Below are positions 23,773-39,020 of a DNA stretch of 39,656 nt, piece by piece. Made by a program: the position numbers and the translations under genes. Source of the DNA: a virus; the IMG/VR virus record IMGVR_UViG_3300042470_000865, positions 1-39,656 of that record. One strand, written 5' to 3'. Numbering within the stretch: position 1 is the stretch's first letter; the number at the start of each line of letters is the position of its first letter. The notes under the pieces are model-generated. The model was not told the DNA's origin, did not search any database, and saw nothing but the letters and a program-made list of their open reading frames with translations.

Positions 23773-24471
23773 ATGACACGCCGTCGTCATAAAAAGTATC
23801 CCGGTTTAACTCCTGAGCAACAAGCTTTAGTAGAAGAGCACAAATGGATTTCAGGTAGATTGGCCTATGGTGCAAAATGTCTGACGGGAGGGCACACGGG
23901 ATCTTTAACGCGGGAAGATTTAGAGTCCATCGCAAACTTTGCTCTTTGTGTCGCAGCTACGCGATACAAGCCAGAAATGAGTGTGAAGTACAGCACCTAC
24001 GCCTGGAATACCGCGAGGGGTTATATCCAACATGCCCTTCGCGACTATTCTCGAATGGTGCGAACTCCGCGTTGGATCGCAAACTATAAAAACCAAGTTT
24101 CAGAGTTGGCTGCCGAAGGAAAAAGTTACAAAGAGATAGCCGACATTTTAGGATTAGACGAGTCTAAAGTCCTTAACTGCGAAATGTCCGGAAATAACTA
24201 CCACGTTTCTTACGACAGTTCTCCCGATGATTGGGTAACTCCTGAGTTTGTTTATGATTTTGAGGAGCACAAGGCCACGTTACTGTCTCCTGAACTTATC
24301 GCACAAATCCGTTTACTAAGTGAAGCGGAAATGTCTATGCTGATCAAGTACATTGAAGGCTCGCCTGTGAGTGCGGAAGAGCATGAATGGGCTGCAGAAA
24401 AGTTTTTTGAACTTCAAGGAATCGCACATGGAATGGCCGGACAAGTTTCAGATGAGCCCTTTTCCGATTGA
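23773..24471 (+). CDS. second sigma-70-like factor
   Basis: A 232-residue protein. Residues 18-92 match sigma region 2: LVEEHKWISGRLAYGAKCL, EDLESIANFALCVAATRYKP, YSTYAWNTARGYIQHALRDY. MVRTPRW follows at the place where region 3 usually begins with 'vRiPr', and then a helix-turn-helix at 112-135 (GKSYKEIADILGLDESKV). The C-terminal 90 residues are acidic and unassigned. A start at 23743 is possible but overlaps nrdA by 29 bases. Together with the 17131 gene, the phage has two sigma-type proteins. Confidence 0.78.
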   Translation: MTRRRHKKYPGLTPEQQALVEEHKWISGRLAYGAKCLTGGHTGSLTREDLESIANFALCVAATRYKPEMSVKYSTYAWNTARGYIQHALRDYSRMVRTPRWIANYKNQVSELAAEGKSYKEIADILGLDESKVLNCEMSGNNYHVSYDSSPDDWVTPEFVYDFEEHKATLLSPELIAQIRLLSEAEMSMLIKYIEGSPVSAEEHEWAAEKFFELQGIAHGMAGQVSDEPFSD

Positions 24472-31373: not shown

Positions 31374-31390
31374 AGGGTAATAATAACTAC

Positions 31391-31440
31391 CGTTCAGCTC
31401 AACTTTTGAGCCGGAAGTAGGCTAACGCCGAAGGAACGCA
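31391..31440 (+). promoter_or_regulatory. glutamine riboswitch (glnA/Downstream-peptide class)
   Basis: The aptamer signature is intact: CGTTCA, a GCTC/GAGC hairpin with loop AACTTTT, CGGAAGTAGGC, and GCCGAAGGAACGC; CGTTC pairs with GAACG to close the element. This matches the cyanobacterial glnA and Downstream-peptide RNA motifs, which sense glutamine. It is followed by a 43-residue YRG-repeat peptide, as expected of the Downstream-peptide class. It probably ties that peptide to host nitrogen status. Confidence 0.88.
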
Positions 31441-31464
31441 TTGCAAACTCAATTGGAGATGGCA

Positions 31465-31733: not shown

Positions 31734-33149
31734 ATGGATTATCAGAGCCCCAATGAGTTTCGGCATAAGAGTACTGACTCTCTATACGCTCATTACAGCT
31801 CTATCGACGAGTATGATTGTAATAAGTTTCCAAACCTTTCTCTGACAACTCCTCAACACTTTAAGTTGCAGTCTGGAGAATCACTCTACATTCCCAAGGG
31901 TTGGTGGCACTGGGTCAAGACAACCAAACGAACGTTTGCGATAAACTACTGGTTTGATAACGAGTTTGCCCTTGACCCATTCACCTTCAACCACACGGTT
32001 GAGTGCAATATCGAGTTACTTCACGGTAAAAAAGTAGCGATCTGGAACTCCGGTGCAGGAGTCAGCATCGAAGAGCAAATGTATATGAGTAACTTCGAGG
32101 ATTTCTACTACTCTGACCTTAACGACAGATACTTAATTACTTTGAAAAACTATCCTCCCGGACACTCAAACTCCGCCGTCAAAGAAACAATATCTGAGTA
32201 TGTTCGTTTTCCAAGTCACCAAGAAATAAAAACAAAAAATGAGTTTGACTTTAACGTCTGGATCTCCAGTAATAGTCACGACACCGGGCTACACTATGAT
32301 GATGAGGACGGAATCTTGACAGTTATTAACGGGGAGAAAGAAATCATTCTTTTTCCTCCCTCTGACTCGCAGTATCTGTATCCCTACGAAGTTTCCTACG
32401 AGTGGCGGAACGTTCAAGCGTATGATTTTCGTTACAATACCGGTCTAAAGATCCGCCCCATTGACGGCATAAGCTGCGCCGAGTTGCTTTACGAAACGTG
32501 CAACGGAGACAAGAGAGTTTTAAGTAATATAAGCAAACTGTACGAGAGATACAAGCATAACCCATGCCTGGTATGGGGGTTCAAAAAACGCGGAGAAGAC
32601 TATCGGTGGGAGTTCTACAACGGTACTCTGAATGATAGTCTCAGAATAACTTCCTGGGACATTTATCCTGATCAGGCAGAGCTTTCCAATCAAGAGCATT
32701 ATTACTACAAATTGGGGGATCAACACCAAGTAGGATTACCTTTCTGGGGTTACGGTAAGTACAGAGAGGGCGATGTTTTGTTGGAGGAAAGTAAAATCTT
32801 TGTTATTGACAGCTATGGCTCTTTTACGGGGAACTATGACGGGTACATGATTGAGCTTGGCTATGGGTCGATAAAAGATCGATTTAAAGATTTAATCCTG
32901 AATAAATACACATGCTACGATATTTGCATTCACAACAAAAAGCCTGGGGAGATATTCGTTCAGTATCTTGGACTTACTAACGAAGAGTTTGTAGAGTTTT
33001 TAACTGTAAACGACTACCCTTCTCACTTAATCAACTTTGTCGCTAATCAAACGAAGGCTGGAACGTATAATCTCAATAACGAGATTACCATTGTCTATAG
33101 CACGGAGACACAAGAAGTTATCCGAAGCGGTTTTTATGGTAACCTGTGA
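31734..33149 (+). CDS. JmjC/cupin-like protein with out-of-order halves
   Basis: A 471-residue protein. Residues 44-73 look like the second half of a JmjC/cupin_8 domain (LQSGESLYIPKGWWHWV, AINYWF), with the distal His at H59. Residues 172-210 look like the first half (FDFNVWISSNSHDTGLHYDD, then KEIILFPPSD), with the H187-x-D189 iron pair. The usual order is reversed, so either a first domain has lost its N-terminus or one domain is permuted. Residues 220-471 are unassigned. Cupin_8 enzymes hydroxylate proteins or small molecules. There is no clear promoter between the terminator and ATG 31734. Confidence 0.6.
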   Translation: MDYQSPNEFRHKSTDSLYAHYSSIDEYDCNKFPNLSLTTPQHFKLQSGESLYIPKGWWHWVKTTKRTFAINYWFDNEFALDPFTFNHTVECNIELLHGKKVAIWNSGAGVSIEEQMYMSNFEDFYYSDLNDRYLITLKNYPPGHSNSAVKETISEYVRFPSHQEIKTKNEFDFNVWISSNSHDTGLHYDDEDGILTVINGEKEIILFPPSDSQYLYPYEVSYEWRNVQAYDFRYNTGLKIRPIDGISCAELLYETCNGDKRVLSNISKLYERYKHNPCLVWGFKKRGEDYRWEFYNGTLNDSLRITSWDIYPDQAELSNQEHYYYKLGDQHQVGLPFWGYGKYREGDVLLEESKIFVIDSYGSFTGNYDGYMIELGYGSIKDRFKDLILNKYTCYDICIHNKKPGEIFVQYLGLTNEEFVEFLTVNDYPSHLINFVANQTKAGTYNLNNEITIVYSTETQEVIRSGFYGNL

Positions 33150-36928: not shown

Positions 36929-37642
36929 ATGGACCTAGACTCTTTCTATTCTGAAAACGAAATTAAAGCCTGGGAAACCGTTCTAGGCCAAAAGATGCAC
37001 TACCATTATGGTGTAAAAAGCGATAAGAATGACGTTTTCGATCAAGCAATCATTGATCTACTAGAGTTTATACAACCAGGATCTAAAATCTTAGACTGTG
37101 GATGCGGATGGGGTGGACCTGCAAAGTTAATCAAACGCGAACTGAATTGTGATATTACGGGGATCACCATCTCTAAAGCCCAGGCGGATTACATCAAGGA
37201 CTTTCCTGTTTTATGCGAAAACTTAGAGTTTTACACTCCTGACACCAACTATGATGTGGCCTTGTTCGTAGAAAGTTTCACTCACGTGGTAAATACTGCT
37301 GATATGCTGAAACGTTTCAGCCCTTATGTGGAGTCTATTATCGTCAAGGACTTTGTTTCTGAAACTCATCAAAGTCTCCCTAACTGGGGAATGACGATTC
37401 GGTCGAAAAAAGTTTTTATTGATGAACTTGAGTCAGCAGGATACGAAGTGAAAACCTACTATGAGGTTAATGACTTTATTGCACCGACAATTGAGTTCTG
37501 GAAAAATAACTTAAAAAAGTTAAACCCAGAAGAAATCACGGGACACTTAATGTTATTGAACGAGCTTTGCCAATGGCTCGAAAATATTAATGAGAGAGAT
37601 CTTGACATAAGCGAGTGTGTTATTCACGCTCAACGCAGGTGA
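36929..37642 (+). CDS. class I SAM-dependent methyltransferase
   Basis: A 237-residue methyltransferase with motif I ILDCGCGWGGPAKLI, which binds S-adenosylmethionine, and GITISKAQADYI, resembling the cyclopropane-fatty-acid-synthase/mycolic-type group. A later HVVN-x-A-x-M-L helix and FVSETHQSLPNWG segment fit the fold. It could modify a small molecule, lipid or nucleotide; the target cannot be read. ATG 36929 is preferred to ATG 36842, which overlaps the oxygenase. Confidence 0.8.
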   Translation: MDLDSFYSENEIKAWETVLGQKMHYHYGVKSDKNDVFDQAIIDLLEFIQPGSKILDCGCGWGGPAKLIKRELNCDITGITISKAQADYIKDFPVLCENLEFYTPDTNYDVALFVESFTHVVNTADMLKRFSPYVESIIVKDFVSETHQSLPNWGMTIRSKKVFIDELESAGYEVKTYYEVNDFIAPTIEFWKNNLKKLNPEEITGHLMLLNELCQWLENINERDLDISECVIHAQRR

Positions 37643-37652
37643 AGACGGTTTC

Positions 37653-37670
37653 CCGTACCCTGAGGTACGG
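37653..37670 (+). terminator. hairpin before the tRNA cluster
   Basis: CCGTACC (37653-37659), loop CTGA, GGTACGG (37664-37670). There is no T run, so termination is probable but not certain. Confidence 0.55.
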
Positions 37671-37679
37671 TCTCCACGC

Positions 37680-37708
37680 TTTACTTCGTCTCCGAGAAAG
37701 ACTATAAT
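37680..37708 (+). promoter_or_regulatory. tRNA cluster promoter, TTTACT-17-TATAAT
   Basis: TTTACT at 37680-37685 and TATAAT at 37703-37708, spaced 17 bp, 16 bases before the first tRNA. Confidence 0.75.
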
Positions 37709-37724
37709 GTAAGGGTGGTTGAAA

Positions 37725-37796
37725 CGGGATGTAGCGCAGCGGTAGCGCGTCTGCTTTGGGAGCAGAATGTCGCAGGTTCGATCCCTGCCATCCCGA
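37725..37796 (+). tRNA. tRNA-Pro (UGG)
   Basis: Acceptor CGGGATG/CATCCCG, D stem GCGC/GCGC, anticodon stem TCTGC/GCAGA with loop TTTGGGA giving anticodon TGG, and T arm with TTCGATC. CCA is not encoded. Confidence 0.95.
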
Positions 37797-37797
37797 T

Positions 37798-37849
37798 TGC
37801 CTAGTTCTGGGGTCCTCCGTTGGTAGAGGGTTGCCCTTCCTAGGCACCT
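37798..37849 (+). pseudogene. tRNA-like remnant (tRNA-Gly type)
   Basis: A D stem CCTC/GAGG around CGTTGGTA and an anticodon-like arm TTGCC-CTTCCTA-GGCA (anticodon TCC, Gly) are visible. The sequence then runs straight into tRNA-Tyr; no T arm or 3' acceptor strand remains. Confidence 0.45.
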
Positions 37850-37931
37850 GGGAAGATTTCCGAGTGGTTAAAGGAATCTGACTGTAAATCAGACGGCTCT
37901 GCCTTCACAAGTTCGAATCTTGTTCTTCCCA
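37850..37931 (+). tRNA. tRNA-Tyr (GUA)
   Basis: Acceptor GGGAAGA/TCTTCCC, anticodon stem TCTGA/TCAGA with loop CTGTAAA giving GTA, and a long variable arm. CCA is not encoded. Confidence 0.95.
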
Positions 37932-37933
37932 TT

Positions 37934-38005
37934 GCCGCCATAGCACAGTGGTAGTGCGCACCCTTGGTAAGGGTGAGGTCCCGAGTTCAAGTCTCGGTGG
38001 TGGCT
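37934..38005 (+). tRNA. tRNA-Thr (GGU)
   Basis: Acceptor GCCGCCA/TGGTGGC with one G-U pair, anticodon stem CACCC/GGGTG with loop TTGGTAA giving GGT, T arm CCGAG/CTCGG. CCA is not encoded. Confidence 0.95.
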
Positions 38006-38165
38006 TTGGTGCGCGTTAGGCAGATAGCCTAGAAGGCGACCAAAGAGGGTGCAACAAGGAACGTTGCATTAAACGAAGGATCCCCTAAGCTGCATCGTAG
38101 AAATAGCGAAACTTGCTTCAGCATAAGTCGCCCAGTCGCTAAACGTAGGCAGACATCCTCGCCCT
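38006..38165 (+). ncRNA. structured spacer RNA between tRNAs
   Basis: No tRNA or protein is found in this spacer. Stems include TTTGGT (38005-38010) with ACCAAA, an inner TAGGC/GCCTA hairpin, TGCAAC/GTTGCA with a 7-base loop, and TAGCGA paired to TCGCTA around an ACTTGC/GC-AAGT hairpin. It would be cotranscribed with the tRNAs. T4 phage also has stable RNAs of unknown role in its tRNA cluster. Confidence 0.4.
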
Positions 38166-38169
38166 GCTT

Positions 38170-38259
38170 GGAAGAGTGGCCGAGTGGTTGAAGGCGCAAC
38201 ATTGGAAATGTTGTTAAGGAGCAATCTTTACAGAGGTTCGAATCCTCTCTCTTCCGCCA
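38170..38259 (+). tRNA. tRNA-Ser (GGA)
   Basis: Acceptor GGAAGAG/CTCTTCC, anticodon stem CAACA/TGTTG with loop TTGGAAA giving GGA, long variable arm. Discriminator G is followed by an encoded CCA at 38257-38259. Confidence 0.95.
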
Positions 38260-38331
38260 CGTCGATTGGCGCAGCGGTAGCGCAACACCTTGACATGGTG
38301 GAGGTCACTGGTTCAAATCCAGTATCGACGA
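38260..38331 (+). tRNA. tRNA-Val (GAC)
   Basis: Starts directly after the CCA of tRNA-Ser. Acceptor CGTCGAT/ATCGACG, anticodon stem ACACC/GGTGG with loop TTGACAT giving GAC, T arm CTGG/CCAG. Confidence 0.93.
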
Positions 38332-38519
38332 TTGCCCTTCGGGGCAACAATCTCGTTCGGACATGGGTTCGATTCCCATTGGCTCCATACTCGGGGCCAC
38401 CAGGCTTTCGACGGGCGAGAGGGTTAGTTTGCAACTGCGAACAACATTGTATCTTTCCGCAGGACTCTGGTCAGCGCCGCTGCCTAGACTCTGAGCGTCA
38501 CGGGGAGGGCAACCTCCCC
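38332..38519 (+). ncRNA. ssrA: circularly permuted two-piece tmRNA
   Basis: tmRNA frees stalled ribosomes and tags their peptides. The acceptor piece comes first: T arm ATGGG-TTCGATT-CCCAT (38363-38379) and 3' acceptor TGGCTCC-A (38380-38387). A 5-base spacer follows, then the 5' acceptor GGGGCCA (38393-38399). The seven pairs include G3-U70, the alanine identity pair. TTTCGACGGG is the conserved 5' segment. CGGGCGAGA (38412-38420) pairs with TCTCGTTCG (38351-38359), joining both pieces as helix P2. The tag frame starts at GCG 38437 and reads ANNIVSFRRTLVSAAA, stop TAG 38485. Cyanobacterial tags also begin ANNIV, and cyanobacterial tmRNA can also be two-piece and permuted. A 5'-end hairpin TTGCCC-TTCG-GGGCAA opens the region. 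Confidence 0.9.
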
Positions 38520-38524
38520 TTTCT
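38502..38524 (+). terminator. tRNA-tmRNA operon terminator
   Basis: GGGGAGG (38502-38508), loop GCAA, CCTCCCC (38513-38519), then TTTCT. The stem may also be the end of the tmRNA coding piece. Confidence 0.75.
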
Positions 38525-38527
38525 GAC

Positions 38528-38884
38528 ATGCAAACATTACTGTTGCTTTCACTTTTAGGTTGGCCGATTCATGGACCCGTTACGCAAGACCCTTCAGTCA
38601 ATCATCCTGCAGTTGACATCGCTTGTACTGTGGGTCAGCCTGTTCGTGCTACTCACGCGGGCAGATTACGCAGCGGACGCACAACGACTCTTGGGAATGT
38701 AGCTACCGTTGAAGGATTGCGCTGGAGCAGCTTTTACGCGCATCTTGACACTGTGACTGCAGATAGGGATGTTAAAGCGGGGGAAGTTATCGGAACGTGC
38801 GGAAACACAGGCACCCTGACAACCGGTCCTCATTTGCATTACTCGGTAAAAACGGTTTACAATCCCAAAGAAAACCTATACTAA
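38528..38884 (+). CDS. M23 (LytM) metalloendopeptidase, secreted
   Basis: A 118-residue peptidoglycan endopeptidase. Zinc ligands are H26 and D30 (HPAVD) and the H-L-H motif (GPHLHY) at 102-104; H72 in YAHLD is the usual catalytic His. The first 12 residues are hydrophobic (MQTLLLLSLLGW), a possible signal or anchor segment. It is little more than the catalytic core, shorter than most M23 proteins. No clear ribosome site is seen. It lies just after the tmRNA terminator. Confidence 0.88.
   Translation: MQTLLLLSLLGWPIHGPVTQDPSVNHPAVDIACTVGQPVRATHAGRLRSGRTTTLGNVATVEGLRWSSFYAHLDTVTADRDVKAGEVIGTCGNTGTLTTGPHLHYSVKTVYNPKENLY
38856..38882 (+). promoter_or_regulatory. promoter, TTTACA-15-TATACT
   Basis: TTTACA at 38856-38861 and TATACT at 38877-38882, inside the end of the M23 gene. 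The predicted transcript start (about 38889) coincides with the base of the structured RNA that follows. Confidence 0.7.
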
Positions 38885-38887
38885 ACT

Positions 38888-39020
38888 GCCACCTTTTACC
38901 AGACGGTTTTATGAGAACCGCCTTGCAACACACGGCAAGGGGTGGCTCGGGTCCTGATATTGTGACCTTAAATCTTTTGTGCCGAGACAACTGCCCCTGA
39001 GACGGGGAACTTCTCCTTTT
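38888..39020 (+). ncRNA. candidate three-way-junction RNA
   Basis: GCCACC (38888-38893) pairs with GGTGGC (38941-38946). Inside are CGGTT-TTATGAG-AACCG and, directly adjoining, CCTTGC-AACACACG-GCAAGG, giving a compact three-way junction. A CTCGG/CCGAG stem follows, then GGGGA-ACT-TCTCC-TTTT (39004-39020), which looks like a terminator. It is either a small RNA or a regulatory leader for the lysozyme gene. No known family matched. Confidence 0.55.

Follow-up and report, generated by a model that had tools for sequence, protein, structure and literature searches.

A compact two-piece tmRNA gene of cyanobacterial type in a cyanophage tRNA array, with a likely resume-codon hairpin in place of the pseudoknot 1 region

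Circularly permuted tmRNAs have already been reported from phages, cyanophages included (PMC9004378). The portions of that study considered here name Melnitz, Pelagibacter phage Mosig, Prochlorococcus phage AG-345-P14 and other marine phages, count 53 two-piece tmRNA structures in isolate genomes, present a phylogeny with cyanophages and describe a permuted tmRNA together with a glutamine riboswitch in AG-345-P14; none of these portions mentions a compact form that lacks pseudoknot 1. Phage sequences in the tmRNA database number 79 (PMC11915505), and the shortest tag-coding tmRNA in a 2005 survey of 274 sequences had 250 bases (PMC1168896). The locus described here resembles the marine-phage tmRNAs, as far as these portions describe them, in being phage-encoded and in two pieces, and differs from that of Melnitz, which is of alphaproteobacterial type (PMC9004378). 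It also shares with mycobacteriophage DS6A the presence of a reduced phage tmRNA derivative, but the DS6A RNA lacks the tag part (PMC4131195), whereas the present gene retains the tag with its stop codon and the frame signals. In a partial collection of the literature, we found no report of a compact class devoid of the pseudoknot 1 region.

The stretch analysed, hereafter the window, is the 39,656-base IMG/VR record IMGVR_UViG_3300042470_000865. It encodes psbA and psbD (D1 and D2; Pfam Photo_RC), its DNA primase shares 56.6% identity with the counterpart in Synechococcus phage S-CBWM1 (MG450654), the nearest isolate in the phage collection, and further matches to this phage comprise ribonucleotide reductase, sigma factors, tape measure and psbA. 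The window is therefore a cyanophage fragment. Sequence comparison confirmed 38332-38519 (+ strand) as a circularly permuted, two-piece tmRNA gene of cyanobacterial type, closing a tRNA array directly after tRNA-Val and followed downstream by an M23 endopeptidase gene (Table 1). An earlier note on this DNA had proposed a phage-encoded permuted tmRNA, a proposal supported by the photosystem genes of this virus record and its likeness to S-CBWM1. T arm, 3' acceptor, 5-nt spacer, 5' acceptor and tag were all found where the note had placed them, as were the 7-pair acceptor with its G3-U pair, the 9-pair P2 and the tag frame, which ends in a TAG stop. Overlooked at that time was the strong reduction of the molecule, from which the normal pseudoknot 1 region is missing.

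Table 1. Predicted features of the tmRNA gene and its surroundings (window coordinates)
Feature	Position	Strand	Evidence or remark
Sigma-70-like promoter TTTACT-17-TATAAT, ahead of tRNA array	37680..37708	+	Consensus scan, 10/12 matches
tRNA array (5 tRNAs)	37725..38331	+	ARAGORN and Rfam
tRNA-Pro(TGG)	37725-37796	+	ARAGORN, Rfam
tRNA-Tyr(GTA)	37849-37932	+	ARAGORN, Rfam
tRNA-Thr(GGT)	37934-38005	+	ARAGORN, Rfam
tRNA-Ser(GGA)	38170-38259	+	ARAGORN, Rfam
tRNA-Val(GAC)	38260-38331	+	ARAGORN, Rfam
5'-piece hairpin TTGCCC-TTCG-GGGCAA, 5' end, right after tRNA-Val	38332..38347	+	Sequence
P2 3' strand, on 5' piece	38351..38359	+	9 pairs with 38412-38420; covaries in relatives
T arm ATGGG-TTCGATT-CCCAT	38363..38379	+	3/5 pairs change on both sides in relatives
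3' acceptor strand TGGCTCC (38380-38386) and discriminator A38387	38380..38387	+	Sequence, Rfam alignment
Intervening TACTC between pieces, presumably removed	38388..38392	+	Sequence
5' acceptor strand GGGGCCA, G3-U pair	38393..38399	+	7-pair acceptor
D-arm region, ends in conserved TTTCGAC	38400..38411	+	Rfam alignment; invariant in relatives
P2 5' strand	38412..38420	+	Pairs with 38351-38359
GGGTT	38421..38425	+	Invariant in all compact members
Hairpin GTTTGC-AACT-GCGAAC in pseudoknot 1 place	38427..38442	+	-6.6 kcal/mol
Tag frame ANNIVSFRRTLVSAAA and stop TAG	38437..38487	+	Frame conserved in relatives
P5-like helix around tag end, stop codon in 3' strand	38458..38497	+	Minimum-energy fold
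Terminal hairpin GGGGAGG-GCAA-CCTCCCC, then TTTCT	38502..38519	+	Sequence, Rfam alignment, fold
Small M23 endopeptidase (PF01551)	38528-38884	+	Starts 9 bases past tmRNA terminal hairpin

The 3' half of the tRNA-like domain precedes the 5' half with an intervening sequence between them, a reduced D arm is present and the anticodon arm is absent, as in permuted tmRNAs; likewise, tag frame, resume codon, adenosine at -4 and stop codon are all there. No pseudoknot 1 separates P2 from the tag; the short stretch at this place is predicted to fold as a hairpin. The predicted pieces have 56 and 127 bases, about 183 mature bases in total, and CCA is not encoded. C38412, the last base of TTTCGAC, is the first base of P2, which may be extended by pairing of the GTT of GGGTT with AAC 38346-38348, an extension that is incomplete in the related locus L052. 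The terminal hairpin, not listed by the terminator scan, is either the 3' end of the 3' piece or a terminator. The promoter in Table 1 is the sole + strand match of the consensus scan within 37600-38900 and might conceivably drive a common tRNA-tmRNA transcript.

Several other elements of the window are worth recording. A conserved and unannotated RNA-like element occurs in or near cyanophage tRNA arrays, in the window at 38039-38158 (+), in the viral contig L015 at 8754-8700 (-), and in S-CREM1 (OP535465, 10043-10101) and DSL-LC03 (OR003938, 167936-167991). Its consensus reads GGGURCAACnAGGAACGUUGYAUUAAAYgAAGrGUCCC..CAUCGUAGA..UCGUAGGyrGAUAC, its stems UGCAAC/GUUGCA and UACAAC/GUUGUA covary, and an Rfam search up to E 5 gave no match, making it a candidate for a new structured RNA family. 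A glutamine riboswitch (RF01739, 61 bits) lies at 31389-31442 (+), separated from the tmRNA by 7 kb and preceding a gene for a cupin-like protein (31734-33149); in phage Melnitz, a glutamine riboswitch is linked to the tmRNA. A search for related loci with the downstream M23 protein returned zero relatives, and in locus L032, which also has a compact tmRNA, the corresponding slot is occupied by an RlpA-like protein, recognised by eye.

The cyanobacterial permuted tmRNA family (Rfam RF01851) has the same order of T arm and 3' acceptor, spacer, 5' acceptor, D arm, P2 and tag, and likewise a 5' hairpin (with which 38332..38347 aligns), an ANNIV-type tag and a terminal hairpin. It differs in P2, about 17 pairs long against 9 in the window, and in the stretch from P2 to the tag, which in the window is short and without the pseudoknot 1 region. 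The RF01851 model, with 203 window bases matched to its 288 positions, had its best match at this locus, a full-model hit of 66.0 bits against a curated gathering cut-off of 70, and tmRNA_permuted (RF04321) gave 43.8 bits against 47, a cut-off surpassed by the relatives L032, L052 and L055. The earlier note would have abandoned the gene on a covariance score below threshold and, taken literally, this is what was obtained, although the RF01851 hit had E-values of 1.1e-17 (local stretch) and 2.9e-19 (whole record) and a gathering cut-off is a detection convention, not a biological feature. ARAGORN, the other program suggested there, reported no tmRNA at the locus by default or with -ps; at an 85% threshold it returned the correct ANNIVSFRRTLVSAAA tag with a wrong 5' end (37840). 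Rfam at curated cut-offs listed tRNAs and the glutamine riboswitch only and no tmRNA. These misses at default settings can be attributed to the small mRNA-like domain. A leave-one-out covariance model built from four relatives, window excluded, scored the window at 96.3 bits (E 1.9e-20). Together with the covariation described below, this independent model overrules the below-threshold Rfam score.

Covariation was evaluated for the acceptor, T stem and P2 (24 pairs) in five compact sequences. Pairing was kept in 99.2% of the cells and 8 of the 24 pairs changed on both sides, against 43-51% paired and 0-1 two-sided changes in controls with the partner strand slid by 1-3 bases. Two-sided changes affected three of the seven acceptor pairs, G3-U being invariant, and P2 covaried at two pairs. 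RNAalifold, run on the four relatives without the window, predicted P2, T stem, acceptor and the stop-codon helix (equivalent to 38458..38497) unprompted.

These relatives were recovered with a DNA pattern for permuted tmRNA, which matched 30 viral contigs, mostly with cyanobacterial-type tags, and with further patterns that added 17 loci of closer spacing. Among the viral pattern loci, the distance from TTTCGACGG to the resume codon fell into three groups of 22-23, 39-48 and 61-69 bases. The shortest-spacing group, identical across three different search patterns, consisted of the window and four distinct loci, L032, L051, L052 and L055 (L054, of the same sequence as L051, was counted once). 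Two further matches, L053 and L059, were rejected as compact tmRNAs, being chance matches. The compact members have in common TTTCGACGGGC..GAGGGTT and AATC..GTTCGGAC. All five keep GAGGGTT, the A at -4 and an xNNIV tag with its stop, all five lie in or beside tRNA arrays, and many third-position changes are found in their tags. The 5'-piece hairpin has an equal position and another sequence in L051 and L055, and the intervening spacer measures 5, 6, 55 or 64 nt across the group, the kind of variation to be expected in a segment destined for removal.

The loci of the compact relatives have proteins in common with S-CBWM1. This phage carries at 23899-24177 an unannotated, full-length permuted tmRNA of cyanobacterial type (123 bits to RF01851). 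It belongs to the lineage of the window and its tmRNA likewise lies beside a tRNA array, but is of ordinary length, with tag ANKIVAFHRQAVSCA and a long spacer before the tag, and the compact model gives it a score of only 35 bits. More generally, ordinary-length cyanophage tmRNAs reached 35-53 bits with that model (best 53.4). Within the phage isolate collection, no match at the tmRNA itself was found for the compact forms of the window, L051 and L055. Among species-genome contigs, a narrow short-spacing pattern gave a single match, inside a Bacteroidetes protein gene, and no compact form with this tag. The closest relatives found for the window tmRNA are other phage copies and give no sign of direct capture from a host, the origin that the earlier note had inferred; the compact sub-class probably is a reduction within a phage lineage. 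DNA matches to cyanophage permuted tmRNA were also observed in S-SSM7 (GU071098, 21006-21136), S-CAM1 (KU686192, 182394-182455) and S-CAM3 (KU686199, 183049-183106), where the annotation gives a hypothetical protein or nothing; these sites are probably unannotated tmRNAs.

Pseudoknot 1 is usual in tmRNA, if not strictly universal. In the window, the gap between D arm and tag is about 22 nt and the stretch from P2 to the tag has no room for it. At this place, all five distinct compact members can fold a hairpin with the resume codon in its 3' strand: GUUUGC-AACU-GCGAAC in the window (resume codon GCG, 38437-38439) and GUUUGC-AAUC-GCGAAC in L052, UGGU-AUAAAC-GCCA in L032, UGAGA-AUAAA-UCUCA in L051 and UGAGA-ACAAA-UCUCA in L055, that is, three independent stems of 4-6 bp. 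Shuffling of the upstream bases gave P values of 0.001-0.03 per member (0.002 for the window), and a combined Fisher P of 1e-5 for three unrelated stems at one place. By hand count, the first three stem pairs from the resume codon change on both sides between lineages. The corresponding stretch of ordinary-length cyanophage forms yielded 0 to -2.0 kcal/mol, the hairpin being absent save in L008 and L045, where a weak version occurs together with the shortest spacing of that group. In these two (L008 8463-8685, -; L045 5720-5886, -; spacing 39-40 nt), a CAC-GATAA-GTG hairpin reaches the resume codon; they are possible intermediates towards the compact form. L051 (5048-5203, -) and L055 (1154-1366, +) have CTC (Leu) as resume codon with a matching GAG upstream, the other compact members GCN (Ala); the resume codons of the 274-sequence survey specify alanine, glycine, aspartate, arginine, serine and glutamate (PMC1168896).

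The adenosine at -4 (A38433 in the window) is invariant in the five members and lies in the hairpin loop. In E. coli tmRNA, an adenosine four bases upstream sets the frame, and a helix that covers the resume codon is the proposed hindrance in one mutant (PMC2481249). Replacement of E. coli pseudoknot 1 by a hairpin or a single strand causes no loss of tagging (PMC4236655), and the compact reduction is therefore compatible with function. Additionally, the tmRNA of Oenococcus oeni also lacks pseudoknot 1 (PMC1168896), so that its loss does not exclude membership among tmRNAs.

When consecutive pairs were counted, hairpin P values were 0.07-0.32 per sequence, not significant singly, and the hairpin is therefore likely but not proven. 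The same count can be read in favor of a functional tmRNA in which the hairpin is accidental and a short single-stranded linker stands in place of pseudoknot 1; the activity of a single-stranded replacement in E. coli (PMC4236655) would agree with this, and RNAalifold omits the hairpin on a MAFFT alignment, in which the stems do not line up. An accidental origin nevertheless has to account for three unrelated stems in one and the same position, each holding the resume codon even where GCN gave way to CTC with its matching GAG, for the combined Fisher P, and for fuller forms without the hairpin; we regard it as rather unlikely. We propose, with belief and doubt about evenly balanced, that a miniature two-piece tmRNA specialised for infection arose in tailed cyanophages belonging to the S-CBWM1 lineage, with a resume-codon hairpin under pairing selection in place of pseudoknot 1. 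If true, the stem pairing kept despite the change from GCN to CTC means that selection keeps base pairing and not codon identity.

As for activity, the window in all likelihood encodes a functional permuted tmRNA that would perform trans-translation during infection in dependence on host SmpB. The sequence contains all the parts for alanine charging, entry into stalled ribosomes, frame setting, tagging and termination; processing, charging, tagging, a benefit to the phage and what the hairpin does are inferred. Host tRNA-processing enzymes would probably cut the RNA transcribed from the tRNA array, the 5-base spacer being removed and the two pieces held together by acceptor stem and P2. After CCA addition, alanyl-tRNA synthetase would charge the molecule through its G3-U pair. 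No smpB was noticed in the scanned part of the window's protein list, the record being a fragment, so the phage RNA would rely on host SmpB, which with EF-Tu would deliver it to ribosomes arrested on broken messages. The hairpin would have to open before the resume codon is read; the ribosome, positioned by the conserved -4 adenosine, would then switch to the tag and add (A)ANNIVSFRRTLVSAAA. Like host tags, the phage tag terminates in hydrophobic residues and alanine, and would mark the product for host Clp-type proteolysis as the ribosome is freed. Most likely, the phage carries tmRNA and tRNAs to sustain translation while host mRNA is destroyed.

An inhibitory role appears improbable. The tRNA-like part could act as a decoy titrating SmpB or EF-Tu and thus blocking host tmRNA, a mode of action already proposed for DS6A, the tag being vestigial; the molecule is indeed a reduced one whose size approaches that of its tRNA-like core, and DS6A has little beyond the tRNA-like domain, a similar RNA being inhibitory to tmRNA (PMC4131195). 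A decoy, however, needs neither tag frame, stop, -4 adenosine nor stop helix, all of which are kept in five members, and conservation of tag and stop thus disfavors a pure decoy of the DS6A type. That the gene is a functionless decaying or captured remnant, left by imprecise excision or as an attachment-site copy, is scarcely credible and was rejected on covariation, for although tmRNA genes are common integration sites (PMC11915505), this one is complete, compensatory changes keep all its helices, and it lies, as do its relatives, in a tRNA array.

Our comparisons thus point to a new, compact tmRNA sub-class in which a hairpin replaces the pseudoknot 1 region, and suggest that a natural tag-coding tmRNA can be reduced to about 183 bases, as compared with 250 for the shortest in the 2005 survey (PMC1168896). 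The loss affects pseudoknot 1, which is replaceable in E. coli, so the laboratory experiment appears to have a natural counterpart. Since the class falls under the defaults of ARAGORN and Rfam, and the S-CBWM1 copy is unannotated, phage tmRNAs are probably undercounted. The host of S-CBWM1 is cultured, so the use by a phage of its own trans-translation RNA is directly testable. If the proposed specialisation is true, these cyanophages would possess a naturally minimised trans-translation RNA adapted to infection.
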